Source: Omphalotus guepiniiformis (taxonomy: Eukaryota; Basidiomycota; Agaricomycetes; Agaricales; Omphalotaceae). Taken from it: a stretch of DNA of 64,000 nucleotides. Position numbers and translations under genes: made by a program. Of this stretch, positions 4,459 to 62,633 are shown piece by piece; position 1 is the first letter of the stretch; each line of letters starts with the position of its first letter. The stretch covers positions 2,294,001 through 2,358,000 of the forward strand of contig JAQOOI010000021.1 of NCBI GenBank assembly GCA_028554645.1, given 5' to 3'. The notes beneath the pieces are model-generated. The model did no database searches and was not told the DNA's origin. It was given only the letters and a program-made list of their open reading frames with translations.

Positions 4459-4500
4459 TCAACAGGGACGTTGAAGTTAATTTTACTTGGGGGGAGAGAG
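4459..4500 (+). promoter_or_regulatory. internal hairpin plus polypurine tract of B'
   Basis: TCAAC (4459-4463), loop AGGGAC, GTTGA (4470-4474) form a 5-bp stem. It is followed by the purine tract ATTTTACTTGGGGGGAGAG (4480-4498). The same hairpin-tract pair stands before the 3' LTR (24140-24173). It lies between genes X and Y, about 200 bp upstream of the X start, so it may be an internal plus-strand primer, part of the antisense promoter, or both. Confidence 0.55.
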
Positions 4501-5084: not shown

Positions 5085-6460
5085 TGATGCGCCGATTTTC
5101 GGCACCTGCATTAAATGCCAGGTGATTAGTCATTTTAGGCATTTGCAGTGAGGTATTAGAGGGTTGAAAGGTGCCCGCCTTGTCAATCAAAATGTGTTGT
5201 GATTTGAGTAATAAAGCATGTTCTATTACCTACGGTACAACATGTGTATCAAGGTTCTAGGCTAGTCAGTACAGTTGTGATGTAGAGAATTGTTCAATAG
5301 CCATCCACTGTTGAATCAGACTCACCCAATCTCGTAACGAGAACTCTGACATCACAACGTCAATTGCATCATATAACTATTAGGGGAACATCTTCCTCCG
5401 GTCAATAAAGAATAAAAACCCGGCGGAAACTAAAAATGGATGGAACGCGAAATAGAGTCGAAATAATGGATCTAGAATAGTTTTGGGGTATTTACTCCTT
5501 AATTAATCGCCAGGAACAAAAGTTGATCGAGGAAATTTGCTTCGATTAATTGTCCGGTGAAAATTGCTTGACAAGAAACCGGTTAGGAGGTGTAAAAACT
5601 CGATCAGTAAAATTTCTCGGAATACTACTGAATTGAAGGAGTTCCTTTAACAAAACAATGTGATACTTTGAGGGGTATAGTTTCTATCAGGTGATTAATC
5701 CTATGGAACCCGGATGCCCGAGAAATGTCAAGGAAATCCGTAAAAATGAAATAAAGGGGCTGAATATTGCCTATAATAAAAATAATGGAATTAAAACGCA
5801 TTTTTGAGGTTTGCCTCATAAAATAGACCTATACAAGTAATAATGGACATACTTGGCACAGATACTTACAACCTACATACACGGATATAGGTATATATAT
5901 AAAACAGGACAGTTTAGCTATAATTTCCGTTTTTATTAATTTTGGACTGGCAGTATGTATAAAAGGGCAGTAACCTGGAGAGAGAAAATCCAGGAGAGTA
6001 CCATAGAGTCACAGGGTCACTGGGGATCGTCTTTATAACGTGAATCGTGCCTGTGAAGGGAAATCCTACCAAAAACATAAAGTTGCCCTGGTCTGTTTAT
6101 AGTCCGGTGTTTATTGCGATATTGTATAAAGATCATTGTTGGTTGAATTGAACTGGTTGTGTTATTGGAATTGGTTGTTTGATCTTGTGGTCAATTGGTT
6201 GTGATTGTGCAGTGAACACCTGTCTTGTTCAAAACCGTCTTGTGCTACTTTTTGCCTTAGTGCATTTTAAAAGCTCAGCTATAAAGTTCTTGTGATAAAG
6301 ATATAAAGTTCTAATAAAGAAGCCATAAGTTTGGTCGTGCGGAACCTTCGACAACGCCCCCTCAGACTCGCACCTTTCGAGTGACTTGGTTGTTTTGGTT
6401 GTTTTTGGGTTTTTGTTCATTAGCCCTTTAGCAGTTCATTTCCCCGATTCATTCTCATCA
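5085..6460 (+). repeat. 5' LTR of element A
   Basis: 1376 bp, TGATGCGCC...TTCTCATCA, directly followed by the primer-binding region. It matches the 3' LTR (19940-21315) with only three differences that I could see: G/A near 5447, 5677 and 5799, two of them in CpG. A TATAAAAG box lies at 5958-5965. CCGG words occur at about 5398, 5423, 5553, 5581, 5711 and 6104. Confidence 0.95.
5958..5965 (+). promoter_or_regulatory. TATA box of element A LTR
   Basis: TATAAAAG followed by GGCAG, about 500 bp before the LTR end. It is the best core-promoter candidate for the genomic transcript and is identical at 20813-20820 in the 3' LTR. Confidence 0.5.
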
Positions 6461-13934: not shown

Positions 13935-15252
13935 CTACTCGTCAGTGGTCATGTCGGTGGTAGAGGTAGAGTCTACTGAGTCCATGGAGTCATCTCCATC
14001 CACATCGGAACTACCTTTAATGGACTTCTTCTTAATAACTAAGGAAAGATTGTCTGCTAGCTTCTGCATGTCACGATAACGAGCACCGTTGGTTTGAACG
14101 ATGTGTGCGAGGGTAGAACACTCCGTACGAAGGCAATTGTGTATAGCCTTAAGAGATTCGAGCGTGAGCTGGTCGTAATCGTAGTATGGAACGAACGCGA
14201 GTGTCTTAAGAACACTGGTGTGAGCCATATCACGTAGGGCCTTCTCAACTATAAAGAATAATGTCAGAATGTATGTGGAATACTATTAAGTGTGTACTTA
14301 CAGTCAGTTTCTTCACTAAGGTTTGAAACAGCTGTTTCCAACTTAAGTCGTTTTTGGCCGGATGTCGCAAAGCCCTTCAAAATGTAGTGGTTAGCCTTCC
14401 TGTACGCGCCAGAGGATTGATCCAATCCAGGAACTGCTGAGTATGGCATGCTTACAACGGCGTGTTGATTCGCGATAAGTTCTGCTTTACGGAACTAGTA
14501 ACGATTTAATATAGGTCCGGTTGAAAATAATGAGTGACTTACAGTAAGATTCTTGATGGCACTAGCTTCTTTAGCACTGCTAGAGTCCTTGGTACCGTCA
14601 GTCATCTGTAAGAACAATGTGTCCAAAATGTTAGTACAAAGTATTAATTACCGGGTGGAAATTACTTACAAGTGCTTCAGCGACAGTTTTGTCGAGAGGA
14701 GGGGTAATAATGACTTCAACATTGTCGTCGTCGTCACAAACAGCCTTTGACTTGGGAGTTTCCTTCCCCTGGAATAAAGTTAGATAATGAATATAAGTCC
14801 GGTAGATAATCGTACCTTGCGTTTCCGATTGTTACCTTCTTCCTTAGCCTTAGCGACTGCTTCAGCAGCAGCAGCGGCATTCTTCAGGCGTTCTTGAACC
14901 ATACGGTCAAGGTGTTTCTGAAGTCCGGCTACAGAACGAAGAGGCGACATTTGAGGACGAGCCGCCATAACCGCCTGCAGGGCAGTGACGTTGTCTTCAA
15001 ACTTCTTGAAGAGTTTGTCGTCGGCAGCTGTAGTAGCCATATCGAGGGGTTTAACCTTAAACTCGAATTATTATTAAACGCCGGACGGTTATTAAAAATG
15101 AAATAACGTACCAAGAAGTCACAAAGCGTCTTAGCGAATTGGAACATCTCTCCATCGGGAACGTTACGAGCACGAGCACGGTCAAAGGTGCCGCGACGAA
15201 GTTCCAGCAAAGCAAGCCAGTCTTCTTTGATGAAAGAGGGAGTAGGGGCCAT
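13935..15252 (-). CDS. antisense accessory gene X of element A (six exons, 349 aa)
   Basis: Function unknown. Hand-built exons (transcript order): 15252-15112, 15055-14816, 14768-14670, 14605-14543, 14494-14302 and 14248-13935. All introns are about 48-64 bp with GT...AG; the sum is 1050 nt, exactly in frame. Protein layout: N-terminus MAPTPSFIKEDW; a helical, alanine-rich segment and basic patch NNRKRK; an acidic patch CDDDDNVE; then AYRKANHYILKGFATSGQKR, homologous to SYLKAMYYLSVAQDNIAAAN in element C; and a C-terminal core LAFVPYYDYDQLTLESLKAI followed by an H-rich helix. This core matches FPFMDLDHFSPEVLQSI in B and LTPYLELPKLSVEALCSV in C. A TATAAAAG box lies 82-89 bp upstream. No known domain is recognised; the acidic and basic patches suggest a nuclear protein (inference). 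Confidence 0.8.
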
Positions 15253-15418: not shown

Positions 15419-15456
15419 TTCAGCGGGGGCGCTGAAATTTTTTAGTTTGGGGGAGA
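15419..15456 (+). promoter_or_regulatory. internal hairpin plus second polypurine tract of element A
   Basis: TTCAGC (15419-15424), loop GGGGGC, GCTGAA (15431-15436) is a perfect 6-bp stem. The tract TTTTAGTTTGGGGGAGA (15440-15456) is identical over 17 bases to the 3' polypurine tract at 19923-19939. It sits between X and Y, about 190 bp upstream of the X ATG. Confidence 0.65.
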
Positions 15457-15958
15457 GGGTGACAAGAGGGTGACAAGTTCCGGAAAACTTATCAATATAT
15501 TTATTATCCGGTGTATATTCGTCCTTCGAATTAAAAGAAACATAAAGAATAAAAAGAATAATAAAAGCTAAAAGAATGTAATAACGAAGTTGTGGGCATT
15601 TCTTAAAATGGAATTTAAGCGCTGAGTAACAATCCTTCGATTTTGAATTTCAGCCGGACTTCAGAAAGTCAGCTGTGATTTCGATTTCTTAGAGTCTTAA
15701 GGTGTAAAATCCTTCATAATTAAGAAGAGGCACACAATAAAAATGATAAATTTTGTACACTAAGTGTCTACAAGCAATGGGTAGAGCTTAAACTTAGGTA
15801 CAGGCAGCGATAAGGTAATGACAAGGTGTAAAATAAATGTTCGATGCGACGCAGCACGACCTACAAAGAAACGAGACCGTCGAGATAAGCGTAAAGAAAG
15901 TAATTCAAAAGAAGACGCTGGGGCACGAAATAATGAATGAAGGAAGAAAGTCCAGTGC
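15457..15958. other. noncoding spacer between internal tract and gene Y (element A)
   Basis: No supported gene. It contains CCGG words near 15480, 15509 and 15655 and should hold the Y transcript terminator; no clear signal was recognised. Confidence 0.4.
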
Positions 15959-16705
15959 CTAAGCTTCTGGACTTACCTCCTCAGATTCCCCAACGCCTGC
16001 ACTTTGATTAGCGTTTTCTTTGGCCTTATCAAGGTACGCTTGATCCACTGCGATCGGTTCTCCTTGGTCGTTGACGTCGACGGCGCTGTGAAAACGGAAG
16101 TCGTCAACCTTCCAACCGAGCGTGGCAGCCAATAGCTCCATCTGAGTCTTGTTCGCAAGGAAGTCGGCGTCAGGTTCGAGAGAACGAAGGACGCTACGAG
16201 CATCGATGCAAGCATCGCGAAGACGCTGCTGCTCGGTGTGGATTAACGAACTAAGCCGTTTGGCAGACTCGCGTGCTTGATTCGACTGTCGAACCAGACT
16301 ATCGAACTCGGTATGAAGCTGTAGAAGATTGGAAACGTGCGAGTTGATAACTAGAAAGTTATTAGAAAGATATAATGAAAGGAAAAGGATGAGGACTTAC
16401 CTGCAGGGTGTTGACGCCCTTCTTGGTATGCTAGGTCCCGAACCTTCGCCATGCTGTCAAGGGAATACTGGAACGAACATGGGCGTTTCCACTTCTCGCA
16501 GACGCTGCACTTATTATCCTCTCCGTGCCAGACGCACGGTTGACTCAAATTGCCGGTTAAACAGCCAGCGCAGATCGGGTTGAGACTGTAACCCTGGAGA
16601 GACCGATTGACAGAGACGAGGTCCTTGAATTTATGCCGCAAGCCGGTGGGATCGACGAATTGGAAAGGGATAGTGGCAGCGGCAGAGGCGAAACGTGAAT
16701 CTCGT

Positions 16706-16941
16706 TAATAGCAGCGTAATGAGCACTCTAAGACGTAGGAACTCGTCTAAACTCAAAGGTTGCCTTGTAAAAGCGAGTGTAGTCTGGCGTTGGCAAAGAT
16801 TCCGCACGCAGAAAACTGACTAAAGTCGAGCTAGACTGTTGGAAAGACTAACTGAACTGTAAGATCACCGTCTAGACCCTTCGACGAGTACCAGAAACAG
16901 CAAACAGACAGACACAGACAGACAGACACAGACAGACAGAC

Positions 16942-16980
<39 letters not shown>

Positions 16981-18210
16981 GTTCAAACACAACAGATGTT
17001 CAGATATTTAGCACTCTATTAAAGCACTGCAATTCCTAATAGTCCGCCTCTACCAGCTCGAAGAACCGGGGCCTGACGTTCACAATCAAGAGGCCTTCTG
17101 CGATTTAACGCTCTAGAAGATACGTAAAGTTCTCCAATTTGGCGGGCAGTCGTAACCTGGGGCGCTCGACCCTATACATGACAGTATATGTACTCTACTG
17201 CTTGTAAGTATTTCATAAATAGATAGAAAACTGAGTGGAGTAATTAAAAGGAACAGAGGGATAACATCGAGTATAAAATGGATATAAACAGAAACAATAT
17301 GACTGAGTTGGGTAAGTAGGCACGTCTAGAGGGTAATTATGTGCAGTTCTTGGGTATATATGTGTAAGTATTATGTTTTAGTGATGTTTTTGGTACATCT
17401 AGACCCTTCTTATCATGCGCTCGAGCCATTCTAAACGAACTACTCCTATGCATTTCGTTATTATTCATCTTCGTAACTGTTTTACAGTGTACTTATAGGG
17501 GCGCCGAGGGCAGTTTCTAGTCATTTATCCCGTCGGGCTTCCGTATTTTCTCCTATTTCGACATCTAGACCCCATAGCACCTCGTAGATATACCAATATC
17601 CAGCGCTCGAAGGTCAATTCTGTCATTACTTTACTAATAAGTTATTATACAGTCATCGAGACTGATCATTTTCATAGCTTTGACCATCTAGTATCTCGGA
17701 ACGGAATCGTCGATCATATATTTCCGATTATAAAGCGTTATCTCCAGTATATCATCAATCTGCAGGTTCTAGGAGGTCGGCTAAGTTCGAACAAACCATT
17801 TTGATGGCTCGGCGATACCTCTAGCTTTGTCCTTTTGACATTATCGAGGCTCATGAGGCTATTACGCCTGTGTGTGTGTAGTTTCTTCCTTCCTAAGTCC
17901 CGTGGATTACACAGATACTTGAATAGCGACTTCCAGACGAAGGGCTCTTTGCCAGGCAGGGTGGGTCTGACCATACTGTACAGTCTCGCAGCAGGTAGTT
18001 ACTTCGCCGAAGGTCTAGAGGCATATCAGCCATAAGGTCTTGATGCATACTCGTACATCGTAGTCCTTTCACTTCGAGCCTTTAACTATTCGTGTTCTAT
18101 GTTTTAGCTAGCACTATGGGACATAGTCTAGCCCTTTATTCCCATCATATTCACAGTAGAAATCGTTTAATTTCAGGTATTTCAGGTGTGTATGCGTTTT
18201 CAGCGCAACA
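16706..18210 (-). repeat. solo LTR of family C inserted in gene Y of element A
   Basis: 17065-18210 matches the 3' LTR of element C (38139-39287) closely. It starts (element orientation) TGTTGCGCTG at 18210. The last about 360 bp, missing from C's truncated LTR, contain TGCGGAATCTTTGCCAACGCC, similar to the LTR ends of B. TSD is TCGT (16702-16705 and 18211-18214). The far end reads CTATTA instead of the usual CA, so either it mutated or the boundary is off by a base or two. Confidence 0.8.
16906..16981. repeat. CAGA/CACAGACAG microsatellite inside the family C LTR
   Basis: Run of CAGA tetranucleotides with interspersed CACAGA units. It lies in the LTR portion that C's own 3' LTR lacks. Confidence 0.9.
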
Positions 18211-19374
18211 TCGTGTGAGCGATTTTCGGCTTCCAGTAGGCTGTTTTAAAAGGTTAATAAAAGGAAGAAAGATGAAAGAAACGATACTTACTGCGTTGGT
18301 GGTGTAAGTAATCTCGAACGGATTGGCGGTAACAGTGTCGACCACTTCATCGTCTTCACCAGCACTTGCTTCCGTAGCCTAGACAAAGATGAAATAAATA
18401 AAAGGAAAATAAGAGCAGTAAAAAGAATACGGACCTCGGGTTTAATCTTCTTGGGTCTACCACGACCGCGAGCAGGAGCAACCGACTCGGGTTTCCTAGT
18501 TGCAGAACGCGTGACGATCTTGGAAGTAGAAGGAGAAGGGTCGCGTTTCGCCTTCTTTTTAGGAGGGGAAGCGAGCTCGTCTAGCTGCTCGGAATCGTCG
18601 GAGTCGGTGGAAGAAGGCGAGTATTCATCCTCGACCGGCGGATTTTCAGTAAGAACCTTCACAGGAGGCGCAACTGAAGATGTTTCGGTATCGAGAGGAG
18701 CGGAAAACTCAGGCAAGGAATCGAATTGGAAGGAGGCTTCGTTCTTGAAGTCGTAAGAGTCCACGTCCGGTAATTGTCGAGAAAGAGGAAAAGGCTATAA
18801 AGAGAATTAGTAAAGAAAAGGGAAATATAATGAGGGAGCTACCGAAAGTTTCAGCTGGCGAAGTCGTTTCGTAGTCGCTTTTGGGATAACGAGAGGTTCG
18901 AAGTCTTTGTACTCCTTACACTCCTTGTCGCGAAGTAACCAAGCAAGACGGGAAATAGACCACCAGAAGCAACGGGCGTAATAAGGCAGATCCGTCTCGT
19001 TAGCCCAGTCGTCGAAGAAATGAGACTAGAAGGTAGAGATAAAAATATTAATATAAGGAACAAAGAAAATAAAGAAAATGTCTTACCCAGTCGAGGTATG
19101 CGTATGTTAGAGCCTCCAGGACACGGGCACTGGGATAATCGTTCTCGTAGTCCGGAGATTCGAAGTTGGCGATATAAATTTCGGAAAGTTGGGACTGAAT
19201 TTTTGTTAACGACTTTTGTAACATATGGTGTCGAACAAGGGGAAGAGAGACTGGCTCGAAAGAAGGGACAGGATTCTTCAATTTAGCGACGCGTTTTCGA
19301 GAGCTTGTTACTTCGACGGTTGGGGCCGTCTTTTTGCTACCGCGTTTGTCGTCTGTTGGTAGTTTGGGCGCCAT

Positions 19375-19902: not shown

Positions 19903-19939
19903 TTGACCGGGGACGGTCAAGATTTTAGTTTGGGGGAGA
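19903..19939 (+). promoter_or_regulatory. 3' hairpin plus polypurine tract of element A
   Basis: TTGACC, loop GGGGAC, GGTCAA (19903-19920; 6-bp stem), then TTTTAGTTTGGGGGAGA (19923-19939) directly abutting the 3' LTR. The tract position is that of the plus-strand primer of LTR retrotransposons. Confidence 0.85.
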
Positions 19940-21315
19940 TGATGCGCCGATTTTCGGCACCTGCATTAAATGCCAGGTGATTAGTCATTTTAGGCATTTG
20001 CAGTGAGGTATTAGAGGGTTGAAAGGTGCCCGCCTTGTCAATCAAAATGTGTTGTGATTTGAGTAATAAAGCATGTTCTATTACCTACGGTACAACATGT
20101 GTATCAAGGTTCTAGGCTAGTCAGTACAGTTGTGATGTAGAGAATTGTTCAATAGCCATCCACTGTTGAATCAGACTCACCCAATCTCGTAACGAGAACT
20201 CTGACATCACAACGTCAATTGCATCATATAACTATTAGGGGAACATCTTCCTCCGGTCAATAAAGAATAAAAACCCGGCGGAAACTAAAAATGGATGGAA
20301 CGCAAAATAGAGTCGAAATAATGGATCTAGAATAGTTTTGGGGTATTTACTCCTTAATTAATCGCCAGGAACAAAAGTTGATCGAGGAAATTTGCTTCGA
20401 TTAATTGTCCGGTGAAAATTGCTTGACAAGAAACCGGTTAGGAGGTGTAAAAACTCGATCAGTAAAATTTCTCGGAATACTACTGAATTGAAGGAGTTCC
20501 TTTAACAAAACAATGTGATACTTTGAGGGGTATAATTTCTATCAGGTGATTAATCCTATGGAACCCGGATGCCCGAGAAATGTCAAGGAAATCCGTAAAA
20601 ATGAAATAAAGGGGCTGAATATTGCCTATAATAAAAATAATGGAATTAAAACACATTTTTGAGGTTTGCCTCATAAAATAGACCTATACAAGTAATAATG
20701 GACATACTTGGCACAGATACTTACAACCTACATACACGGATATAGGTATATATATAAAACAGGACAGTTTAGCTATAATTTCCGTTTTTATTAATTTTGG
20801 ACTGGCAGTATGTATAAAAGGGCAGTAACCTGGAGAGAGAAAATCCAGGAGAGTACCATAGAGTCACAGGGTCACTGGGGATCGTCTTTATAACGTGAAT
20901 CGTGCCTGTGAAGGGAAATCCTACCAAAAACATAAAGTTGCCCTGGTCTGTTTATAGTCCGGTGTTTATTGCGATATTGTATAAAGATCATTGTTGGTTG
21001 AATTGAACTGGTTGTGTTATTGGAATTGGTTGTTTGATCTTGTGGTCAATTGGTTGTGATTGTGCAGTGAACACCTGTCTTGTTCAAAACCGTCTTGTGC
21101 TACTTTTTGCCTTAGTGCATTTTAAAAGCTCAGCTATAAAGTTCTTGTGATAAAGATATAAAGTTCTAATAAAGAAGCCATAAGTTTGGTCGTGCGGAAC
21201 CTTCGACAACGCCCCCTCAGACTCGCACCTTTCGAGTGACTTGGTTGTTTTGGTTGTTTTTGGGTTTTTGTTCATTAGCCCTTTAGCAGTTCATTTCCCC
21301 GATTCATTCTCATCA
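19940..21315 (+). repeat. 3' LTR of element A
   Basis: 1376 bp direct repeat of 5085-6460, followed by the target duplication GCGT at 21316. Confidence 0.95.
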
Positions 21316-21337: not shown

Positions 21338-23869
21338 TCACTCTGAGAGGGGATCGTCCCTCCCAGCTAGTGGACTGCTTTCTGGCACCAGGACTTTCCC
21401 GGCTGTCTCCTCCTCCAACTCGTCCTCCTTGTCTTCGTCCTCTTCGACCGTTATCTGCGAGGCACTGACCGCCTGAGGCGATTCGTCAATGTCAGCTGTA
21501 GCAACGGGAGTGGAGTGAATATTGGAAGGGCCGGCTTGCTGCTCGACTTCTGGATCCACCACGACAAAACGACCTGCTTCATTCCTAGCGATGTAACTGG
21601 CCCGAGACACCAGATTGATGTCCCAACCGAGCGCGGTAGCTAGCAACTTTAGCTGCTCGTCGGAATAGTCAAACGTTGGGTCGCCAGCCTGAACCTGATG
21701 TAAAACGAGACGAGGATCGCGGCACGAAGCCTTGATGTGTTCTTGACGCTGCAAGATCGTTCGGTGTACTCGTTCCATTGCTCGCATCTGCGCGGAGACG
21801 CTGTTTTGCATGTCTTCGTAAGTGTCAATAAGAATCTGAAGTTGGTCAGCTTCCTGAGCAACAACTAAGAAATGAAGGATCTTTAATAAAAAGATATCTA
21901 GAGAAATGAGAAATGGGCTTACCGGCACTGCCGCTGCGAGCCAACGTGTATGAAAGACAACGAAGCTGATCGCTGCCTTCCAAACCGTAGGACCAGCTGC
22001 AGGTGTGATTGTCCTTCGCGCAAGTCGCGCAGCGCCACTCGAATGTCTTGCTGTTAAGTTGGGGACGGCATTCCCGCCCTTCTGTGTGTGTACCACCGAC
22101 GCAGGCAGCACAAATAGAGTCGCCGAAGAACTAAAGAGTGACGAAAAGAAAATTTAGCGGGTATTAATCTCGAGTCAGAGAGGTACTTACCCTGTCGAAT
22201 GTACGATTAACCGAAACGAGCTGTTGTAAAGTAACAGGACGGCCATAAGGCCATCCAAAAACAACACGGCCTGCAAAGGAGTCGTTAAACAAACGCTAGA
22301 AAAATGAAAACCCAAAAGATACTTACCGGGTACCTCTTCAAAGTCCTCCTTAGCGCGATTTTGAGGCGTTCGTCCATCTGAGCGCTAAAAAGAAGACATT
22401 ATCAGTAAACAAATGCTGCAATAAAGAAGCGATGAGACTTACTTGAAGATTTGGGGCCTCGTAACGAGTGCCCGGAGCAAGAGAAACAGAAGATGTCGAA
22501 AAGTCAGCGCGAGAAGCCCACAAGGGAGCCTCAAAGTCGACATTGAGATTGACGGGGGCCTTAGCACCCTCAGCCTTGACCGCTTTCTCCTCTTCCTTCT
22601 TCTCCTCTTCCTCGTCGCTGGATGCTGGGACTGTGACTGGAGTTGCCTTAGATCGCGTCTTTCGAGACGCTGGTTCATCGATCGGCTCTTCTACCCGCAT
22701 CTTCCAAATCTTCGGTCGTGGCTTGACCACCTGTTTACCCTTGCCCTGTGTAAGAAAACATGAGAAAAGAATAAATAAATCTACAAAGAAAAAACGTACC
22801 TTTGAAGCCGCAGCTGCAGGCTTCTTACCCTCAGAAACGCGAGACTTCTTGACCGGAGGCTCAGAGCTCTCGGACTCGAAGTCAGTATCATTGTTGTCGT
22901 TGTCGCTAAGCTCAGTCGATTCGGCAGTTGCTTCAACGTCGGAAATCTTGCGCTTCATCTAGAAATGATAAGGATAAGAAATGACAACTTCAAACAAAAG
23001 AAAAAGACTTACTGAACGACCCGGTAAGGGCGTTACAGAGGTCTTGGCCTTTGGCTTTGACTTGGGTTTGGAAATAGGAGCCGGTGTCTTTGACGAGCCA
23101 GCGCGAGCGACCTTCGCAGAAGCAGAAAGTGTGGCAAGAGGCGGGAGTAATATTTCGTCGTCGTCATTGTCGTCTTCCAGCTGCGGAGTTTGCTTAAGTT
23201 TTGGAAATGGAGGCAAGGGCTCCCATAAGTTGCGAAGCTGTAAGAAGTTAGCAAAAAGGAAATGAAACGAAGTCTAAACCAATACTTACTGTATATTTGA
23301 GACAGAAGGAATCAAGTTTAGCGCGATTTAGCCCCCAAGGCAGCACGATAAAGGAAGTCGGCTTTGCCTGATGTAGCCATAGTGCAAGGTTGCAGGCTGA
23401 AAGAAAGGAGCCAGTGAAATAGTCGGGGAGATGTGTATGTGCTCTCTGGCAACGATTGAAGGTTAGAGCGACGCGAGTCTGTAAAGATGAGGTTAGCCAT
23501 AACGAAGATGAAAAGAAATAATGCCTACCAAGGCGAGATTCAAGTCGTCGAAGGCGGAGGTAATGGTTTTTAGCCTGAGACCCTTGCCGAACTCCTTAAA
23601 CGATTGGTCTCGTAAACGACGGTCCAAGTCGCCTAGTCTTGAAGTAATAGCGGAAAGTGCCTTGTAATCCTCTTCGTTCATATCTGAGAGCTGTGAGGGA
23701 GAAAAGAAAAGAAAGAGGCCGTCAATTGAGAACGGTTCTCGAATATATATGTGACACAATGTGAAAAACAGCGCGTGAGAGAAAGGAATTAAAAAGGACT
23801 TACCGGTACCTCGGAAGGCTCCCTACTGAGAGTGATAGAGGAAGCCAATTGCCTTGAAAAGTCATCCAT
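21338..23869 (-). CDS. antisense accessory gene Y of element B' (ten exons, 658 aa, open)
   Basis: Exons in transcript order: 23869-23804, 23690-23529, 23478-23290, 23237-23013, 22958-22800, 22745-22443, 22384-22327, 22270-22191, 22130-21923 and 21864-21338. Every junction is GT...AG and in phase, total 1977 nt. Blocks: N-terminal helices (RLGDLDRRLRDQSF); acidic QLEDDNDDDEI; lysine/proline-rich segment; acidic Ser-rich EATAESTELSDNDNND; a further basic-acidic linker; GWPYGRPVTLQQLVSVNRTF (like KFKDLVSVNRSL in A); Cys6 module CAAC...C...CATCAKDNHTCSW; coiled-coil-like helix; LLATALGWDINLVSRAS; acidic C-terminus. Function unknown; a zinc-dependent nucleic-acid-binding nuclear protein is inferred. 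It is intact although pol and X of the same element are broken. Confidence 0.8.
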
Positions 23870-24139: not shown

Positions 24140-24173
24140 GATCGGGGACGATCTTATTTTACTTTGGGGGAGA
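24140..24173 (+). promoter_or_regulatory. 3' hairpin plus polypurine tract of B'
   Basis: GATC, loop GGGGAC, GATC (24140-24153), then ATTTTACTTTGGGGGAGA (24156-24173) abutting the LTR. The tract differs by one base from the internal copy at 4480. Confidence 0.8.
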
Positions 24174-35528: not shown

Positions 35529-36767
35529 ATGACACGCTCGCAGCGTACACGAAGGAACCGTCGCGGTAAACCAAGCGAAGAGAAACGCGCGAAGAAAGTC
35601 CAGCAGTGGTTAGCCTGTGGAGGGTACGGGAGAGCTGTTCAGCGAGCCGAACAGGGGTTGAGAGAGCATAGTGAGTCCGTTTTACTTCCTTCCTCTGACC
35701 CTACTCACGAAGTTGGTGGTAGAAACACTTACCACGGACGAGTTTCCGCCGGACTTTGTTGGGGTCTCCAAGCATCAGGCCAACGTCAGGACAGTCACAG
35801 AGACTAATACACCACGGATTACCGGACCTTTCCAACGCTGCAAACAGCAAGCAACATCATCCTCAAAGGCCCTGGAAGCCTTGACCAGAGTTTCCTGCTT
35901 GGCCTTTTCGCCAACGTTGTGTCACCTCGCGCACCGTCCCTGCTCATGAAGAAATGGGTGGCTTTCAATCAGACAAAACCTAAACATTCCGGCTGTGGCG
36001 ACAAAAACAGATCAAGTACACAGGCGTTCCACTTCGGTACCTGGTCGTTATACAGCCCCAAAGCCATGCTGACAGCGGACACAAGACACCAACCCAGTCA
36101 GGCTTGCTTGACGGCCATGGATGAATTCTTGGATGCTGTCAAACTGTTGCTGCTGGCGCCGATGAAAAGGATTCTGATGGAGTATTTCCCGGAAGACTGG
36201 GCTAGACGGCAGAAGTACATTCTTCTTTGTATCTATGCAGTGTTTGAATTATCTAACAAATTCAGAGCTTACGCAGTGTTTGCAAAAGGCCTTCAACGTG
36301 AATACACCAGTCGTCCTGCCACAGACTTTGAAGGTATGGTGCTGTTGTCAATGAAAACATTTGCTAACAGCGAGTGCTTAGGTATCGCTTCAACTATTGC
36401 TGTGAAGGAGGGTGGTTCCGAAATTCCACATACAGATGTCAATGATGCCCGGTATACCAGAACATTTATATATACATTTGGTCACTTTGAAGGTGGGAGA
36501 ACAGTGTTCCCTCAGATTGGCATCACTGTCAAGCCTACCGTACGGCAGTTGCTTGCTGCCAATACCAAGCACTTATCTCATTTCACTGAACCTCCCAAGG
36601 GTCAACGTGTAGTATTGACAATATTCTTTGAACATGTTTTGTTAAAGCGTGCAGGTGGTTTGGAATATATATATATTCATGTAGCGCATACATATATACA
36701 TGGTAGAAACATAGATAGACAATCTTTGAATAGAATTATACAAATTCAGAAAATTTCAGAAAAATGA
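35529..36767 (+). CDS. TET/JBP-like Fe(II)/2-oxoglutarate dioxygenase (exon model partly uncertain)
   Basis: Probably oxidises a base in DNA or RNA, as proposed for fungal TET/JBP relatives. The basic N-terminus MTRSQRTRRNRRGKPSEEKR starts at 35529; a 49-bp intron (35671-35719) joins to KTLTTDEFPPDFVG. A further junction around 35750-35860 is unresolved because the frame changes. The next part runs open from FLLGLFANVVSP through FHFGTWSLYSPKAM. An intron of 48 bp (36334-36381) precedes the catalytic barrel: GIASTIAVKEGGSEIPHTDVNDA (iron ligands His and Asp), FGHFEGGRTVFPQIG, then LSHFTEP (second His) and GQRVVLTIFFE (Arg for 2-oxoglutarate). The order HxD-H-R fits the family. Such genes often accompany fungal transposons of the KDZ type; here a CACTA-like transposase lies 3 kb upstream. 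The C-terminal tail after FFE is probably not original. Confidence 0.55.
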
Positions 36768-38135: not shown

Positions 38136-39287
38136 TGTACCGGGGCCTGACGTTCACAATCAAGAGGCCTTCTGCGATTTAACGCTCTAGAAGATACGTA
38201 AAGTTCTCCAATTTGGCGGGCAGTCGTAACCTGGGGTGCTCGACCCTATACATGACAGTATATGTACTCTACTGCTTGTAAGTATTTCATAAATAGATAG
38301 AAAACTGAGTGGAGTAATTAAAAGGAACAGAGAGATAACATCGAGTATAAAATGGATATAAACAGAAACAATATGACTGAGTTGGGTAAGTAGGCACGTC
38401 TAGAGGGTAATTATGTGCAGTTCTTGGGTATATATGTGTAAGTATTATGTTTTAGTGATGTTTTTGGTACATCTAGACCCTTCTTATCATGCGCTCGAGC
38501 CATTCTAAACGAACTACTCCTAGGCATTTCGTTATTATTCATCTTCGTAACTGTTTTACAGTGTACTTATAGGGGCGACGAGGGCAGTTTCTAGTCATTT
38601 ATCCCGTCGGGCTTCCGTATTTTCTCCTATTTCAACATCTAGACCCCATAGCACCTCGTAGATATACCAATATCCAGTGCTCGAAGGCCAAGTCTGTCAT
38701 TACTTTACTAATTAATAAGTTATTATACAGTCATCGAGACTGATCATTTTCATAGCTTTGACCATCTAGTATCTCGGAACGGAATCGTCGATCATATATT
38801 TCCGATCATAAAGCGTTATCTCCAGTATATCATCAATCTGCAGGTTCTAGGAGGTTGGCTAAGTTTGAACAAACCATTTTGATGGCTCGGCGATACCTCT
38901 AGCTTTGTCCTTTCGACGTTATTTAGGCTCATAAGGCTATTACGCCTGTGTGTGTGTAGTTTCTTCCTTCCTAAGTCCGTGGATTACACAGATACTCAAA
39001 TAGCGACTTACAGACGAAGGGCTCTTTGCCAGGCAGGGTGGGTCTGACCATACTGTACAGTCTCACAGCAGGTAGTTACTTCGCCGAAGGTCTAGAGGCA
39101 TATCAGCCATAAGGTCTTGATGCATACTCGTACATCGTAGTCCTTTCACTTCGAGCCTTTAACTATTCGTGTTCTATGTTTTAGCTAGCACTATGGGACA
39201 TAGTCTAGCCCTTTATTCCCATCATATTCACAGTAGAAATCGTTTAATTTCAGGTATTTCAGGTGTGTATGCGTTTTCAGCGCAACA
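38136..39287 (-). repeat. truncated 3' LTR of element C
   Basis: Begins (element orientation) TGTTGCGCTGAAAACGC at 39287. It is closely similar to 17065-18210 and loses homology at about 38139, where the neighbouring gene starts. CTAGACC words occur at 38473 and 38639. Confidence 0.9.
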
Positions 39288-39322
39288 TCTCCCCCAAACC
39301 AAATCTAGACCGTCCCCGGTCT
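39288..39322 (-). promoter_or_regulatory. 3' hairpin plus polypurine tract of element C
   Basis: On the - strand: AGACC, loop GGGGAC, GGTCT (39322-39307), then ATTTGGTTTGGGGGAGA (39304-39288) abutting the LTR. On the other strand it lies about 490 bp upstream of the Y ATG. Confidence 0.8.
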
Positions 39323-39794: not shown

Positions 39795-41679
39795 ATGGCG
39801 CGAACCACGGGCAAAGCTTCCAAAGGGAAGGGCAAGGGTCCGGCCTCAGCAGTGGCTAAGAAAACTCGCGCGGGCAAGAAGAGCGCAAAGCCTCCATCTC
39901 CACACGATCTGGCCAACCAACTGATTTCGGTTCTTAACGATGTGTACCGTCGACAGTTCGATAAACCTCGTCGTAACCCCCCTACCGTTTCCGAAATGGT
40001 GAAGGCGGTTGAAAAGGCGGTCCCCATCATGGTAAGTAGTAATCCGTTTTTAAACTCTTATTATTTTCTCATTATCCTTTCAGGATTCCCTCTTTGAAGA
40101 TGTCAATTTCGAAGTCGACGAGTTTTGCCCCCACGTCCGTGGTGTGTGGCTTGCTCTCCTTCGGCTCTCCCATCCTCTCGAATCTCGTATCTCCGCCCTC
40201 TCTGAATGCGGGTGGTATCTTTCCAAAACCGAACGCCAAGATAAATATGCACTCGAATCAGTAAGTTCAAAATTTCTCTTTAAATCTCTCCCCAGGTCTT
40301 AGTTCTCCATTCTTCAGTTTCATGACTTCAAGACTGAACTAGACGATGTCTGCGATGCTCTTGGTGACGATACTATTCTTGATGTCTCCGATGACGAGTT
40401 CGTCGATGTCTCGGACGATGAATCTGTCACCATTAAGACCGAAGTATGTCTCTCTTATCTTTTATCCACATATTTTCTTACCCTTCTCTTCAGCCTATCC
40501 AGACTTCAAAGAAGTGACGCATTACCGAGATCGACGACGACGACGACTTGTTCTCGTTCAAAAAGACTCGGGCCGCGACACCTTCTGATAAAAAGGTTCG
40601 CGCACCCTCGACTATGCCTAAACCGAAGCCAAGGCCTAAGCCCAAAGTCGAACGCATTCCCTCGCCGTCTCCTAGTGCTGCATCTCAGGTCCCTCCGGCC
40701 GTAGACGAGGCTCCATCTCACCCCAGCGGACAAACTTCAGAACTCGGCACCTTTACTCTTCCTGGGAGCGACCAGGTATTTAATTTGGAGGAGCTTCTGC
40801 AAGCGACGTATACGCTCGACTCGGTAAGCTTCTCTTTTCTCTTTTCTATCTATGATTTATTAATCCCTTTTCCTTAGGTGGTGGGCCATCTTCCTTGTAC
40901 TCGATGTACCGCTAGCCACACCGCTCACCAGTGTGTCGCTCCGCCGAACCCAAGTACGACACACAAGTGTCTGTCCTGCTACAAGGGCAGGCAGCCTTGT
41001 TCCTGGACCCTTTCCCCGGCCAAAGCGAGCGAGATGCGCAATATTCTGCTTGGCTACACTCGTCAGGGCTCGTTGAGTAAGTTCCCCTATTACTTATTTT
41101 ATTTTTCAAGCTAAATTGCTTTCTCTAGATCTGTCTCTTGAGGTCTCCTCACTGGTGGAAAAGATCGCCTCCTACGAGCAGATGCTTCGCAACATTTCGA
41201 GCCTCGTCGACTGTGCTAACGGTCTTCGAGAGTCGATTGGCAAGGACCAGGACCGTCTCCGAAAGGCATCCCCCGACCCTACCATCATTTTCCAAATTCT
41301 TCAGCAACACGACCCCTCGTTCAAAGGCAACCTCGACGAGTTGAAGATGATCGGTGCAGGCTTGGGCTGGAACCTCTCCCTTCTGGACAAAGGCATTGTC
41401 TTGACTAAATCTAGCGCAGGCTTTCAGCTTCAATCCGCGGCGACTCGACAAAGTTCCGACTTTTCGTCTTCAGATTCCCGAGGCCGGATCGAGCGCATGG
41501 TGGCTTCGGTCCTAGGCCCTACTCAAATGCCATCGTCTTCATCCCGTGGGCCAGCGCCTGCTAGTCCTTCCTTTCCCGCGTCCTCTCTTCCAACCTTCAC
41601 CACTCTCGATTCCAATCGTTCCCCGTTGGAGGAGGAAAGGGTGGGACAGCTCTTGGTCGAGGATACTCCGGAGAAGTAG
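39795..41679 (+). pseudogene. antisense accessory gene Y of element C (one in-frame TGA)
   Basis: Exons: 39795-40031, 40084-40260, 40318-40443, 40494-40823, 40878-41076 and 41129-41679, all GT...AG, total 1620 nt (539 aa if read through). Basic N-terminus (KASKGKGKGPASAVAKKTR); helical region; acidic DDTILDVSDDEFVD; Lys/Pro-rich KPKPRPKPK; Cys6 module CTRC...C...CLSCYKGRQPCSW; coiled-coil-like region; LKMIGAGLGWNLSLL; Ser-rich tail. TGA at 40515-40517 interrupts the frame between TSKK and RITEIDDDDD, most simply CGA (Arg) to TGA. It is homologous to Y in A and B. A TATATATA lies only about 25 bp upstream of the ATG, so the promoter may be elsewhere. Confidence 0.78.
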
Positions 41680-42189: not shown

Positions 42190-42226
42190 TCTCCCTCAAA
42201 CCAAAAGAAGTTCAGCGTCCCCGCTG
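42190..42226 (-). promoter_or_regulatory. internal hairpin plus second polypurine tract of element C
   Basis: On the - strand: CAGC, loop GGGGAC, GCTG (42226-42213), then TTTTGGTTTGAGGGAGA (42206-42190). The tract matches C's 3' tract in 15 of 17 bases. It lies about 230 bp upstream of the X ATG, the same position as in A and B. Confidence 0.6.
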
Positions 42227-42436: not shown

Positions 42437-43761
42437 ATGGCTCGAGGATCCAACAAGACCTGGCCCGAGAGGGATCAATGGTTAAAGGAGACTCAAGAGG
42501 CCATTACTGCCGCTCAAGCCGTTCAAGCCTTTCCCAAAGCCAGTCCCAAGCTTCTAGGACCAGTCGTGACGGCTCTAGCCGATCATATGGTTTGTTTATT
42601 ATATTCTTCAGGCTTCGTCGAGCTCATATTTCTTCATAGTCCAAGCCTTTAAATGCCAAAGTGGTGGCCAAGGATGATATCGCCTTTGATACCTTCCAGA
42701 AAGGACTCAACACTGTGATAGCTATTACAGAGATTGATGGGGTCAATTGTCCCTACCATCTAAATGGGCTCGAGGAGTTCTTTGCCAAGCTCGAGGTGCT
42801 TCGACAGCCCACTCGTAAGCGCAAGGTAACTCACCTCTTTCCTCATTAATCTTTACAAGCTTCATTGTATACTCTTCGCAGAACGTTAAATCTCCTCTTA
42901 TCATCGAAGACGATGATGAGGATGATGAGATCGAGTTCGTTGGAGGTCGGATTGCTTCTACTCCAGTAAGTATCCATATTTCCTAGGTCGAGACTCCGAC
43001 TTGACCTAGGTTTAGGACTATAAAGCCGGACTCGCAGCCGCCTTGGGTCTTTCTGCATCTATGCATGCCCCTTCTCAAGAATTAAGCCTTCCACCTGGCC
43101 TCAAGTTCAACAAGAAGGTCAGGGTAAGTGCGGTGTCTTCTTATCCATCATATTATAACTTCACCGAACGTTCAGGACGTCGCGAATCGTTCTTCTACTC
43201 TTTCATTGGCCCTCGGCGATGTACCTGGAATGGATGTACGTTCTCGTTCCTACCTCAAGGCCATGTATTACTTATCAGTTGCTCAGGATAACATTGCAGC
43301 TGCCAATGGCAAGCGCATTCGCCTCGAGCAATCCATTTCCGATCTTCGTGAGGATATTGAGGGTAAGTAAGCATGGTTTCTCCCTGTCTCGACCCTACTG
43401 ACCCTATTGATCAGAGGATAAGACCCTTTGAGAGGCCGCCATCGCTACAACTTTCCGCCATATCGCGCTCACTCCGTATCTCGAACTGCCCAAGCTTAGC
43501 GTCGAAGCTTTATGCTCAGTTCTCAATTTCCTTCGTACCGAACAAGTCACTCTTCAGCATGCTGTACATTTCCATGCCAATCAGTACCAGTTCGTTGTTA
43601 AACAGATGGACAACATCCAACGAGAGCAATTTAGTCGTCTCTCAGTCGAGGACAAGCAAACCGCTGATTCTTCATCTTCGGAGACCCCTCAAGATGCTAC
43701 CATGGAGGAGGCTGGGTCTAGCTCAGCTGATACCACAGCTACCAACTCTAGCAGTGCCTAA
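42437..43761 (+). pseudogene. antisense accessory gene X of element C (one in-frame TGA)
   Basis: Exons: 42437-42589, 42640-42825, 42882-42965, 43016-43123, 43176-43362 and 43415-43761 (1065 nt). MARGSNKTWPERDQW at the start parallels MAPKGPKTWPERPEW in B. Then ITALA/VTALADHM-type helix; RKRK; acidic EDDDEDDEIEF; GLSASMHAPS (GLSASIHAP in B); SYLKAMYYLSVAQ; core LTPYLELPKLSVEALCSV; Ser/Glu-rich tail. TGA at 43429-43431 stands where A reads Arg (EKALRDMAH), so CGA to TGA is the likely change. A TATAAAG box at 42326-42332 lies about 105-110 bp upstream of the ATG. Function unknown. Confidence 0.78.
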
Positions 43762-50815: not shown

Positions 50816-52629
50816 TGTTGCGTCAAAAAGCCTTTCAGTACTGAAATCTATCAGATTGAAGTAAATATGGAAGGTTCAAGCATTGGAAACTGAACATAAA
50901 GGACTAGAGTCACCCCAGACTGCTAGTTAAGACATGAAACATACTTGTACTCACAATACCTAAGTGTAGTGTTTGCTACAGTACTGAATCTGGTACTAAG
51001 CAACTGTGACCAATGGGTTATACAAAGAGATACTAGTTATGCCTCTCCAGATGTGTTGGAATTCCAATGTTCCATACCAGATTGAGTTGGTCAGACCCAC
51101 CCTCTAATAACTAGAGACTCTACCAAGTGTTGTTGACTGTAATCCAAGGGGTTGATGGATTTTCACTTCAATTGAACAACTATCTAAGTCCTTTGGACTG
51201 ATCAAAAGTTCCAGCTGGTCTGGCTAACTAAGTTGGCACTATAAGATTGAATGCTGAGAATATGGGCAATCTTAAAGATTGTATTACCAGAGAAATATTG
51301 TACATTGAGTACTATGTGGATATAATGTCACTGAGATGAAATGCCAATCTGTGTAATAATGGAAGTAGATTCAAAAGTTACATCTGCACAAAGGAGTTAG
51401 ATACTGAAAATGAGTATCTCTCTGGATCTGAGTATCTCTCTGAAATTCAGTAACCCTCTGAACTTGATGAAAGACAAAGGCGCTCTAATTGGAGGTCTTA
51501 GACGAAACTATGGGATAGAATACTGTCCTAGGAGAAGCTGAGAGCTATCCTAAACAAGAAATATAACCTGAGTACAAATCTGACCAAAAAGAGATGTATA
51601 GGGGTAAAACTTGAAATAAACAGTTACTGTACCTTACTGTGGCTGATAGAAACGATGAAGCAGGGTCTAGATAAGCTCTAGAGCTTCTACACAACTCCTA
51701 ATGCTGCCCTAGTAGAGGAGGATGTGCCAATTTTGGAGAAACTTATAGGGGACCAGATTTGCAATGCACTGAGGAGAATGTCACCTGTCAGGATACTGGT
51801 TGCTATTTACAGGATCTGGACCTTTATTTAGATACCCTGGGTACGCCCTAACACACCTAGAACGCGGACAAAGCGATATATTTCTGTTTTTATACCAATC
51901 TATACCCAAAGTTCCTTCATTTTGACTATCTAACTGGAAAATTACCTAGAAAACTACCTAAAAAGAATCCAATCTCTGCTCAATTGATACTTACTTACTT
52001 TTGACTCATTTACTGTTCAGATTACTCTTTTAATTTCGAGATATATGTTTGATTTTATGATTTAGTATATATAGCTTACAGAGTATCTATTTAGATTTTC
52101 TTAAGCAAGTACTGCCCAAAGCTACAAGCCAAAGCAGGAAAACCTTCTTAGACGAAATATAGCCTGGCTCTTTAGAGTTCAGTTCGAGAAATATCCAGTT
52201 GTGAAAACTTCTGTAAAGTCCCTTGTGGCAGATAAATTGAAAGAGATACTGAATCTTTGCTGAAACTACTGTTCTGTCTGTGCTGAATCTGCCTGCTGAA
52301 ACTGTCTGTGCTGCATCTGAAACTGTTCCCTGCATTGTCTGACCATTGGATCGAGTTTAAACATCGAGATTGATTGTCCTGATTCCCTCCTGAACCCTGA
52401 AAACCACCCTTACCTTCTGTCTGAATCTTGTGTTTTGAGATACCCTCTGCCATTTTTCACCCAGATTGAGATAAAGACATCTGTAACCCTGCAGATTCAA
52501 AGTTCAATTGTTGCGTCTAACTGTGCGGAATCTCTGACAACGCCAGTCACACCTCACCCTACATCATTTTGATTTGAGTTGGATTGTGCTCATTTGAGTA
52601 TCTCTCTCGTTCATTTCATAGTCACTACA
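50816..52629 (+). repeat. 5' LTR of element B
   Basis: 1814 bp, TGTTGCGTCAAAAAGCC...TAGTCACTACA. Related along its length to 24174-26019. It carries AGTTAGATACT (51394 onward) followed by GAGTATCTCTC repeats. Confidence 0.93.
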
Positions 52630-60399: not shown

Positions 60400-61793
60400 T
60401 CAGAAAATGTCTGCAGATGGGAAGGCATGGAAAGGAGCTGGATCATCAGCAGTACCGGGACCAGACTCCAAGGGACTCTGGTTGGCCCTGTAAGCCTTCT
60501 CCTTCTGTCTTCGGAGCAATTCCAGACGGGAAAACTCCTTGTAGGCGAATCTGTACTGAGAATGATGATACTGAATGGCATGTTGATGAACACTGAGTTC
60601 TGTCTTCAAGAAGTTGGAAATTGATTGAAGAACCTCAGGAGAGAAGTGGTCCAAGTCCATGAAAGGGAACAGAGCAGTGATACGAGTCACAATCTCTTCT
60701 CCACTCTCCCGGAGTTTGCGCTCATCTGCAGGATAATTGAGTTAGATACTCGAAAAAGCCGCAGATTGGGTGACTACTCACGGTCTGTCTCCTCTCTAAG
60801 GTTGACGATTGGGTTCTCAATACGAGGCTTCTTCATGACAATCACCTTGTGGGGCTCAGGAATAGGTTCATTCTACACAAACATTTATAGTCAGTACATG
60901 AAACTGCATGAATATCTCCAGATGGAACTAAAAACTTACATCTTTGGGTCCAACTGAGGTAGCCTGCAAAGTTACCATGGTACATCAGTCTAGAGAAACG
61001 AATAAACAGTTCTGAACATAAATCTGCTTACCCTTGGAGAAGTGATTACTACTTTTTCCTTGGAAGACTTATGAACTGTGGTAGTAGTGGAAGAACCTTT
61101 GGTCTTGTCCTTGCTAGAGTCCTTGTTATCCTTATTGGGAGCGTGGATTGACGCAGAGAGCCCAAGAGAAGGTCCATCTGCCATCTAAGAAAAGAAAGAC
61201 CATGTTGAGATTTGAGTTAGGTACTCAGGAGTTAGATACTTACAGTAACGTCTCCGTCACCAGTAATGACCTCAATCTCTTCATCGTCATCATCGTCATC
61301 CTCAATAAGTTCGGGAGTTTTAGCTGGCTACACACCGATAGGCAGTTAGATACTCGAAATGAGAGGGATGGTCAATAAAAACGTACTTTGCGCTTCTTAG
61401 ATCCGCTGAGAGTCTCTCTGCGCTTTGCCAAGTCGTCCCGGAAAGCTTTAATGGCGGAGAAAGTGTCAGGTTCACCTACAGATGGGAACTTCTTGACTGC
61501 ATCTGCGACCAGATTGACACCTTTGTCGAACAAAGTGAACGCTTCCTCGGACTTAGCAACTGCATATGCAGGAAGAGACTTCTTCTGTAATAAGAAATCA
61601 AGTTAGATACTGGACCTGGAATCAAAGATTGAACATTTACAAGATGACTAGCAAGGGCTGTAATAAGCATCCCAAGCAGTTCAGTATCCGCATCTTTGGC
61701 CTCCATGGCTCCAGTAGCTCGAGAAAGATATCGCTGCGTTGTGGCAACCCACTCAGGACGCTCAGGCCAAGTCTTGGGACCTTTAGGGGCCAT
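60400..61793 (-). CDS. antisense accessory gene X of element B (seven exons, 342 aa)
   Basis: Exons in transcript order: 61793-61641, 61584-61387, 61327-61244, 61184-61032, 60963-60940 (24-nt microexon), 60872-60782 and 60725-60400; total 1029 nt in frame. N-terminus MAPKGPKTWPERPEW, ITALASHL; basic-acidic pair GSKKRK and EDDDDDDEE; GLSASIHAPN; Lys/Ser/Thr-rich segment; KVIVMKKPRIENPIVNLREE; core FPFMDLDHFSPEVLQSI followed by an H/Y-rich helix; Pro-rich tail. Homologous to X of A and C. Four of six introns carry the family word AGTTAGATACT on the opposite strand. A TATAAAAG box sits about 100 bp upstream. Function unknown. Confidence 0.82.
60739..61612 (+). repeat. dispersed family B word AGTTAGATACT in gene X introns
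   Basis: Copies at 60739-60751, 61229-61240, 61343-61355 and 61600-61612, with a variant GAGTTAGGTACTC at 61214. Other exact copies lie at 3201, 3676, 3699, 3814, 4071, 4736, 24753, 24783, 51394 and 62265, all on the + strand and all within family B sequence. Confidence 0.8.
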
Positions 61794-61987: not shown

Positions 61988-62026
61988 TCAACGGGGACGT
62001 TGAAGTTAATTTTACTTGGGGGGAGA
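61988..62026 (+). promoter_or_regulatory. internal hairpin plus second polypurine tract of element B
   Basis: TCAAC, loop GGGGAC, GTTGA (61988-62003), then ATTTTACTTGGGGGGAGA (62009-62026). Same position relative to X as in A and C. Confidence 0.65.
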
Positions 62027-62633
62027 GAGCACACAAAGTTTACAAGGCCAAAATTTTGAATTTTTGAAATTTCAAATATCTCAAATCTGGAGATCTAGAC
62101 AGCTTTGACCGCAGAGGACTTAGCCGAATAGCATTGCCGAGTAACCGAGAGCTCTCAACCTTGACAGAAAGGACTTATTAAATTCAATGTATCCTCAAAA
62201 AGAAACGATACTTATTGAAAATTGTGGGCTTAAGTCATTTAAAGAATTGTTTCCCTCTAGAATCGAGTTAGATACTCAATTTGAAGGAGACTCTCAATAT
62301 GATTTCTTATGTTTCACACCAGATTCATGCCAAGAAAAATGAAATATGTATTTTTGAGCATAGAAGCTCAGGACTATAATAAGAGATACTTCGACCTATA
62401 CTACTATAAAGTAAGTACAGGGAGTATCTACAGAAAAAGCGAGGTATAAAATTTTTATATATTTGGGCAACCTGGTGTGTTGAACACCAAGGCTACCCGC
62501 GACGAAATGCGAACGGATACGGCAGGTCCCAGCCAAGCGAAGAAAGCGACAGATCTGTGAGATTGGGACTGAGAGATGGAGAAAGTAAAGGGAAAAAGGG
62601 GTACGAACTATGCGTGCACCCGAGCCTTGAAAG
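62027..62633. other. noncoding spacer between internal tract and gene Y (element B)
   Basis: No gene seen. One AGTTAGATACT (62265-62277). It contains the uninterrupted insertion site of element A (near 62605-62620). Confidence 0.5.

Follow-up and report, generated by a model that had tools for sequence, protein, structure and literature searches.

The choice of one purine tract by reverse transcriptase (RT) is explained mainly by the local hybrid. In retroviruses and Ty1, the polypurine tract (PPT) is associated with a U-box on its 5′ side, a system set beside the Tf elements in the accessible part of PMC10085805. Lentiviruses and Ty1 carry inside the element a second purine tract similar to the 3′ one, referred to as the central PPT (cPPT) and PPT2, respectively. 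For the PPT and cPPT of HIV and SIV, RNA structure is considered unlikely to modulate PPT use by the authors of PMC3616985 (in the portion available), and the PPT of Ty3 lies in a weakly supported paired region according to the available portion of PMC11381356. As far as the texts were accessible, the word hairpin is absent from the main text of two surveys that include fungal gypsy elements (PMC3248453, PMC2864245) and from a review of plus-strand synthesis (PMC3185511), and the accessible open-licence literature yielded no comparable hairpin ahead of the PPT of a gypsy element.

The locus described here shares with the U-box systems a T-rich stretch before the tract that adjoins the long terminal repeat (LTR), but differs in that a covarying hairpin is located 5′ of the U-rich stretch, and in that two further families of the same genome, F and G, have the hairpin without a U-box. 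As in the case of the central PPT and PPT2, a second tract is present inside the element, but each tract has its own hairpin, and the use of these tracts as primers is predicted. This hairpin looks like an overlooked signal for element copying.

The window, that is, the whole stretch of 64 kb analysed, contains nested Ty3/gypsy elements designated A, B, B′, and C, of which A was inserted in a copy of B, named B′. Elements A, B, and C belong to the Ty3/gypsy (Metaviridae) group of LTR retrotransposons. RNase H and H2C2 integrase domains of Pfam are present in all three, the best match of A pol among solved structures was Ty3 Gag-Pol (E 4.7e-34), and the LTRs, represented by a pair for A, a pair for B, and one LTR plus a solo LTR for C, are accompanied by a terminal PPT directly before TG. 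The level of pol identity among A, B, and C was approximately 68–69%. The insertion of B was apparently at the gag end of C, the start of the B 5′ LTR (50816–50826) coinciding with the end of the C gag frame, and a solo LTR of C type (17065–18212; 97.8% identity to the C 3′ LTR) is located inside gene Y of A. A reading frame at 35919–36767 showed a weak, below-cut-off match to the Tet_JBP oxygenase domain (E 2.3e-05).

Beyond pol, antisense genes X and Y are present in A, B (B′), and C. As compared by matches of exon pieces only, and not of full gene models, X showed 32–42% identity among A, B, and C, and Y showed 25–29% among A, B′, and C (best E 1e-12 in both cases), and the two genes are far more diverged (25–42%) than pol. 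No Pfam match was detected for gene X in A and B or for two pieces of the C gene Y, no relatives were found by protein searches with X of B and Y of C, and Y of family E gave no BLAST match to other Y. A pattern of C-x2-C ... C-x2-C was noticed by eye in Y, that of family E included.

Table 1. Positions of LTRs, hairpins, purine tracts, and antisense genes in the window
Feature	Position	Strand	Remarks
A LTRs	5′ 5085-6460; 3′ 19940-21315	+	identity 99.8% (1376 bp); GCGT on both flanks
B 5′ LTR	starts 50816		
C 3′ LTR	39287 down to 38139	-	
A internal hairpin, TTCAGCG(GGGG)CGCTGAA	15419..15436	+	shuffle p 0.001; fold z -2.07
A internal purine tract, GGGGGAGA, then GG	15449..15456	+	
A 3′ hairpin, TTGACCG(GGGA)CGGTCAA	19903..19920	+	fold z -4.20
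A 3′ purine tract	19932..19939	+	adjoins 3′ LTR directly
B′ internal hairpin, TCAAC/GTTGA	4459..4474	+	closing pair decayed to A.C; absent from the preliminary description
B′ internal purine tract	4490..4497	+	
B′ 3′ hairpin, GATCG(GGGA)CGATC	24140..24153	+	fold z +0.31
B′ 3′ purine tract	24166..24173	+	LTR begins 24174; B 5′ LTR start alike at 50816
B internal hairpin, TCAACG(GGGA)CGTTGA	61988..62003	+	fold z -2.26
B internal purine tract	62019..62026	+	
C 3′ hairpin, AGACCG(GGGA)CGGTCT	39307..39322	-	fold z -1.21
C 3′ purine tract	39288..39295	-	LTR begins at 39287
C internal hairpin, CAGCG(GGGA)CGCTG	42213..42226	-	fold z -1.53
C internal purine tract, GAGGGAGA	42190..42197	-	
Antisense gene X of A	13935..15252	-	predicted, intron-containing; matched by exon pieces to X in B and C
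Antisense gene Y of A	15950..19374	-	approximate limits; matched by exon pieces to Y in B′ and C
Other X/Y	21342-23869, 39795-41675, 42437-43761, 60400-61793		

A total of seven hairpin–tract units were identified in the window, two each (internal and 3′) in A, B′, and C, and the internal one of B (Table 1). Each unit is composed of a stem of 5–7 bp capped by a purine-rich tetraloop (mostly GGGA), a U-rich linker, and a purine tract, which is GGGGGAGA in the window except for the variant GAGGGAGA at the C internal site. The distance from the stem end to the tract end was 19–23 nt in all seven units, and immediately after the tract comes TG at the 3′ ends and G at the internal sites. The 3′ tracts of A, B, and C adjoin the LTR directly, and the LTR start in these elements was confirmed by a second copy. 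The tetraloop is closed by a G–C pair, replaced by A.C only in the B′ internal unit, and the GGGA loop, as read with this inner pair, fits the GNRA class. Among the copies in the genome the loop varies, being GGGA, GGGG (A internal), AGGA, AGGT, GGAA, AGGG (family G), or a GGA triloop (3′ unit of family E); AGGA, AGGT, and GGAA occur in copies of B, D, and A types. All six hairpins listed in the preliminary description were recovered at their positions, and the B′ internal hairpin was added as the seventh. The loop, described there as an invariant GGGGAC, is better regarded as this G–C-closed tetraloop of variable sequence, and the purine tract, placed there within about 2–6 bases of the hairpin, was found in the window at a distance of 11–15 nt, across the U-rich linker.

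The specificity of the hairpin was examined by scanning both strands of the 64-kb window for a loop of the class G[RGG(A/G/T)]C with a perfect stem of at least 5 bp. Six hairpins were detected, and all six were the units described above. The same scan of 60 first-order Markov sequences yielded a mean of 0.5 and a maximum of three hairpins, none followed by a purine tract, and an Rfam search of the window at gathering score gave no matches. When the best stem within 45 nt before the tract was compared with shuffled sequences, p ranged from <0.001 to 0.082 for the 13 family-level units, and was 0.552 and 0.475 for families H and I, respectively. In single-sequence folding some units were weak (Table 1), and the B′ 3′ unit was no better than its own shuffles; the case for the hairpins rests on covariation and position. 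The sense strand folded more stably than the antisense strand in 13 of 13 units, for which the G-rich composition is partly responsible. An outer helix between the U-rich linker and bases upstream of the stem, suggested by folding for A 3′, C 3′, and C internal, was dropped after flank swapping, in which 1 to 12 of 12 foreign flanks did as well (shuffle fractions 0.072–0.860).

The covariation test proposed in the preliminary description was performed on an alignment of 13 family-level units, the hairpin-less H and I being left out of 15 tract sites; in the aligned set E 3′ is out of register, and F/F2 and B/D are close pairs. In three of five measures the alignment exceeded all 500 shuffles, which ignore kinship: paired cells amounted to 87.8% of 90 (57.6 ± 3.7 in shuffles), cells changed on both sides to 30 (11.3 ± 2.2), and the covariation score to 0.786 (0.231 ± 0.047). 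Slid registers gave a score of 0.170 or less, a control biased in favour of the structure, as this was derived from the same sequences. Changes on both sides were seen in six of the seven pairs, a pair being represented by as many as four types; in the two remaining measures, neither this number of changed pairs (6; 178 of 500 shuffles) nor the number of further pair types (14; 130 of 500) stood above shuffles. In the close pairs, the segments at the units rank high, not top, in conservation: 0.95 against 0.80 overall for the F/F2 unit (rank 84 of 3162), 0.85 against 0.63 for B/D internal (rank 110 of 3114), and 0.89 against 0.52 for B/D 3′ (rank 31 of 3258). We have little hesitation in regarding the hairpin as a real, selected RNA structure.

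The distribution of the unit was then examined in the source genome (42.5 Mb, 80 contigs), which, judging from its size, introns, and transposons, would be that of a fungus, probably a basidiomycete. The strict hairpin motif gave 149 matches and its reversed control one, while the PPT–LTR junction motif, for which the hairpin was not required, gave 120 and none, respectively. In all 30 junctions of the latter type retrieved (L031–L060), the hairpin was visible by eye with at most two pairs changed and, in some, an altered loop. Pairing of internal with 3′ units was counted on 100 listed strict-motif places and 36 listed PPT–LTR places. Among the listed internal units, a 3′ unit was present downstream on the same strand for 23 of 27 of B (22 at 3.3–3.5 kb), and a partner 3′ unit for 16 of 17 of C (15 at 2.9–3.0 kb) and two of five of D. 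Family E gave 33 internal places (≤3 mismatches) and 33 3′ places, neither with a match in the control, and 30 of the 33 internal units had a 3′ partner within 20 kb, in 26 cases at 2.9–3.2 kb. The A internal sequence had two genome matches within three mismatches, against at least 11 A-type 3′ places among the matches listed.

Outside A–D, two units of the same kind are carried by family E (L091), with the internal hairpin ACAACTG(GGGA)CAGTTGT and the 3′ hairpin CGACTG(GGA)CAGTCG, while F and G have one unit each, at the 3′ end. For families E to I, the LTR start was placed at the TG that follows the tract, on the evidence of a single LTR. The hairpin of F/F2, ACGATG(GGGA)CATCGT, is enclosed by an outer TTAGG/CCTAA helix that has a single bulged base, adjoins GGAGGGGG, and overlaps the pol stop; 11 nt separate the stem from the likely LTR start, and no gene is present between the pol stop and the LTR. 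A chromodomain in F/F2 was seen by eye only. The F motif gave 85 genome matches and its control three; of the 85, at least one is unrelated. Family G (L093) has a 12-bp stem, TTAGGGTTCTTG(AGGG)CAAGAACCCTAA, which adjoins GAGGAAGATAC and the likely LTR start; its motif gave 28 matches (≤2 mismatches) against none in the control, and 24 of these differ by one base from the copy read. In both F and G, the stem end is 11 nt from the tract end. By eye, one antisense frame with a TATA-like box apparently lies between pol and the hairpin–tract–LTR end of G (L093 1–640). The hairpin is present in both A and F, the pol proteins of which are only 26.7% identical over 445 residues; the unit occurs in distant lineages. 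Families H (L096) and I (L097) have tract–LTR junctions but no such hairpin, and the claim of a hairpin before every polypurine tract does not hold for them. The presence of two units in each element, as also proposed, applies to most listed copies of B, C, and E but not to F and G. For the internal unit of A, only two places were found. The survey of families leaves aside J and K (L061, L094, L098, L099), L092, and L095.

A role in reverse transcription is suggested by two features of the units: within the window they are confined to purine tracts, and they are also present in F, which lacks a gene after pol. The suggestion of plus-strand priming made in the preliminary description agrees with the position before the LTR-adjoining tract, the internal recurrence, and the presence in F, and from these we infer priming. 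The hairpin is probably a part of the plus-strand priming site. Use of the internal unit as a second plus-strand origin is a candidate role that we lean towards on balance, and the whole reading, an RNA structure of the priming site in the sense transcript together with a second origin at the internal unit, is put forward with moderate confidence. An internal copy of the PPT, as in a central PPT, is present both at the window sites and in the genome copies. The module in the sense RNA would consist of the hairpin, the U-rich linker (U-box), and the purine tract; the 3′ module would tag the primer beside the LTR, and the internal one, approximately 3 kb upstream, would serve as a second plus-strand origin, equivalent to a central PPT, in elements measuring approximately 14 kb or more. 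AnTm tracts follow the internal purine tract at a distance of 25–90 nt in B (62049–62073), C, D, and E, and none was found in A; within 130 nt the numbers were three in B, two in C, one in D, two in E, and zero in A, against background probabilities of 0.010 for three or more and 0.051 for two or more. As a candidate termination-like sequence these tracts are suggestive only.

On this priming reading, RT, travelling from the LTR through the tract to the stem, might be paused by the stem, and RNase H would then be placed near the 3′ end of the tract; in addition or instead, the stem could hold the RNA just 5′ of the tract outside the hybrid, and so set the 5′ side of the primer. The pausing step is a guess. 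The active sites of Ty3 RT are approximately 13 bp apart according to the accessible part of PMC5371799, a distance that is only loosely bracketed by the 19–23 nt (A–C) and 11 nt (F and G) from stem to tract end, and therefore pausing fits only loosely. The hairpin-less tracts of H and I count against the priming reading, as do the view on HIV and SIV cited above, the two places only of the A internal unit, the conservation ranks short of the top, and the similar distances to X given below.

Different explanations of the hairpin were considered in the light of these results. Stems of at least 5 bp occur in 14.5% of random 45-nt stretches, and the B′ 3′ unit folds no better than shuffles, as would be expected of hairpins arising by chance, but the combination of covariation, fixed position, specificity of six out of six, and recurrence in E, F, and G makes such an origin extremely improbable. 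The alternative suggestion of the preliminary description, that the hairpin acts at the DNA level in the antisense promoters of genes X and Y, is in line with two observations: all units of A, B, and C lie upstream of such a gene, and the TATA-like box of X is at a similar distance from its unit in the three elements (115, 131, and 136 nt, respectively). The distances to the box of Y, however, differ widely (387 nt in A, and 97 or 479 nt in C, no box being found in B′), F carries the hairpin without an antisense gene between pol and the LTR, and the two arms change together with pairing kept, unlike a protein-binding site; a promoter function is considered unlikely.

Tetraloop hairpins are in general contact sites for proteins and RNA, and the hairpin could be a signal for packaging, export, 3′ processing, or tetraloop contacts that merely lies beside the tract. 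The units are, however, present at both tracts, including the internal one far from the RNA end, and nowhere else in the window, and we give such a signal a small but somewhat greater chance than the promoter. The internal unit might instead be the relic of a former 3′ end, retained through descent alone, with only the 3′ unit at work: it resembles the 3′ unit, and family G, with pol, an antisense frame, and one hairpin–tract–LTR end, is a possible one-unit ancestor. Since no LTR-like sequence but only short chance words follow the internal tract, and the internal unit has been kept in A, B, C, D, and E despite diverged flanks, the relic is as doubtful as the promoter.

Among elements with additional tracts, the plant Ty3/gypsy elements Athila4 and Calypso likewise have a single extra PPT, located between pol and the 3′ LTR, with no hairpin mentioned in the accessible part of PMC2829016. 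In the Sireviruses, as described in the same part of that source, several tracts near AGGGGGAG are also present and a structure borders the terminal one, an inverted repeat with one arm in the LTR and the tract in the loop, the upstream PPTs being without structure; in the elements described here, the tract is preceded by both arms, and this arrangement recurs at internal tracts. An inverted repeat of the Sirevirus type, sought at ten 3′ junctions, was no better than shuffles at all ten (p 0.15–0.985). In plant Retand and Grande as well, pol and the 3′ LTR are separated by a long region that carries antisense genes (PMC11963269, PMC7264820, in the portions available), but X and Y are without Pfam match and each has a hairpin–tract unit upstream. 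With a covarying hairpin fixed 5′ of the tract and repeated internally, the role of RNA structure in primer choice becomes directly testable. Ty3 is said to be without a central PPT in the available part of PMC5371799, and two tagged tracts in gypsy elements would widen the known range of second plus-strand origins.
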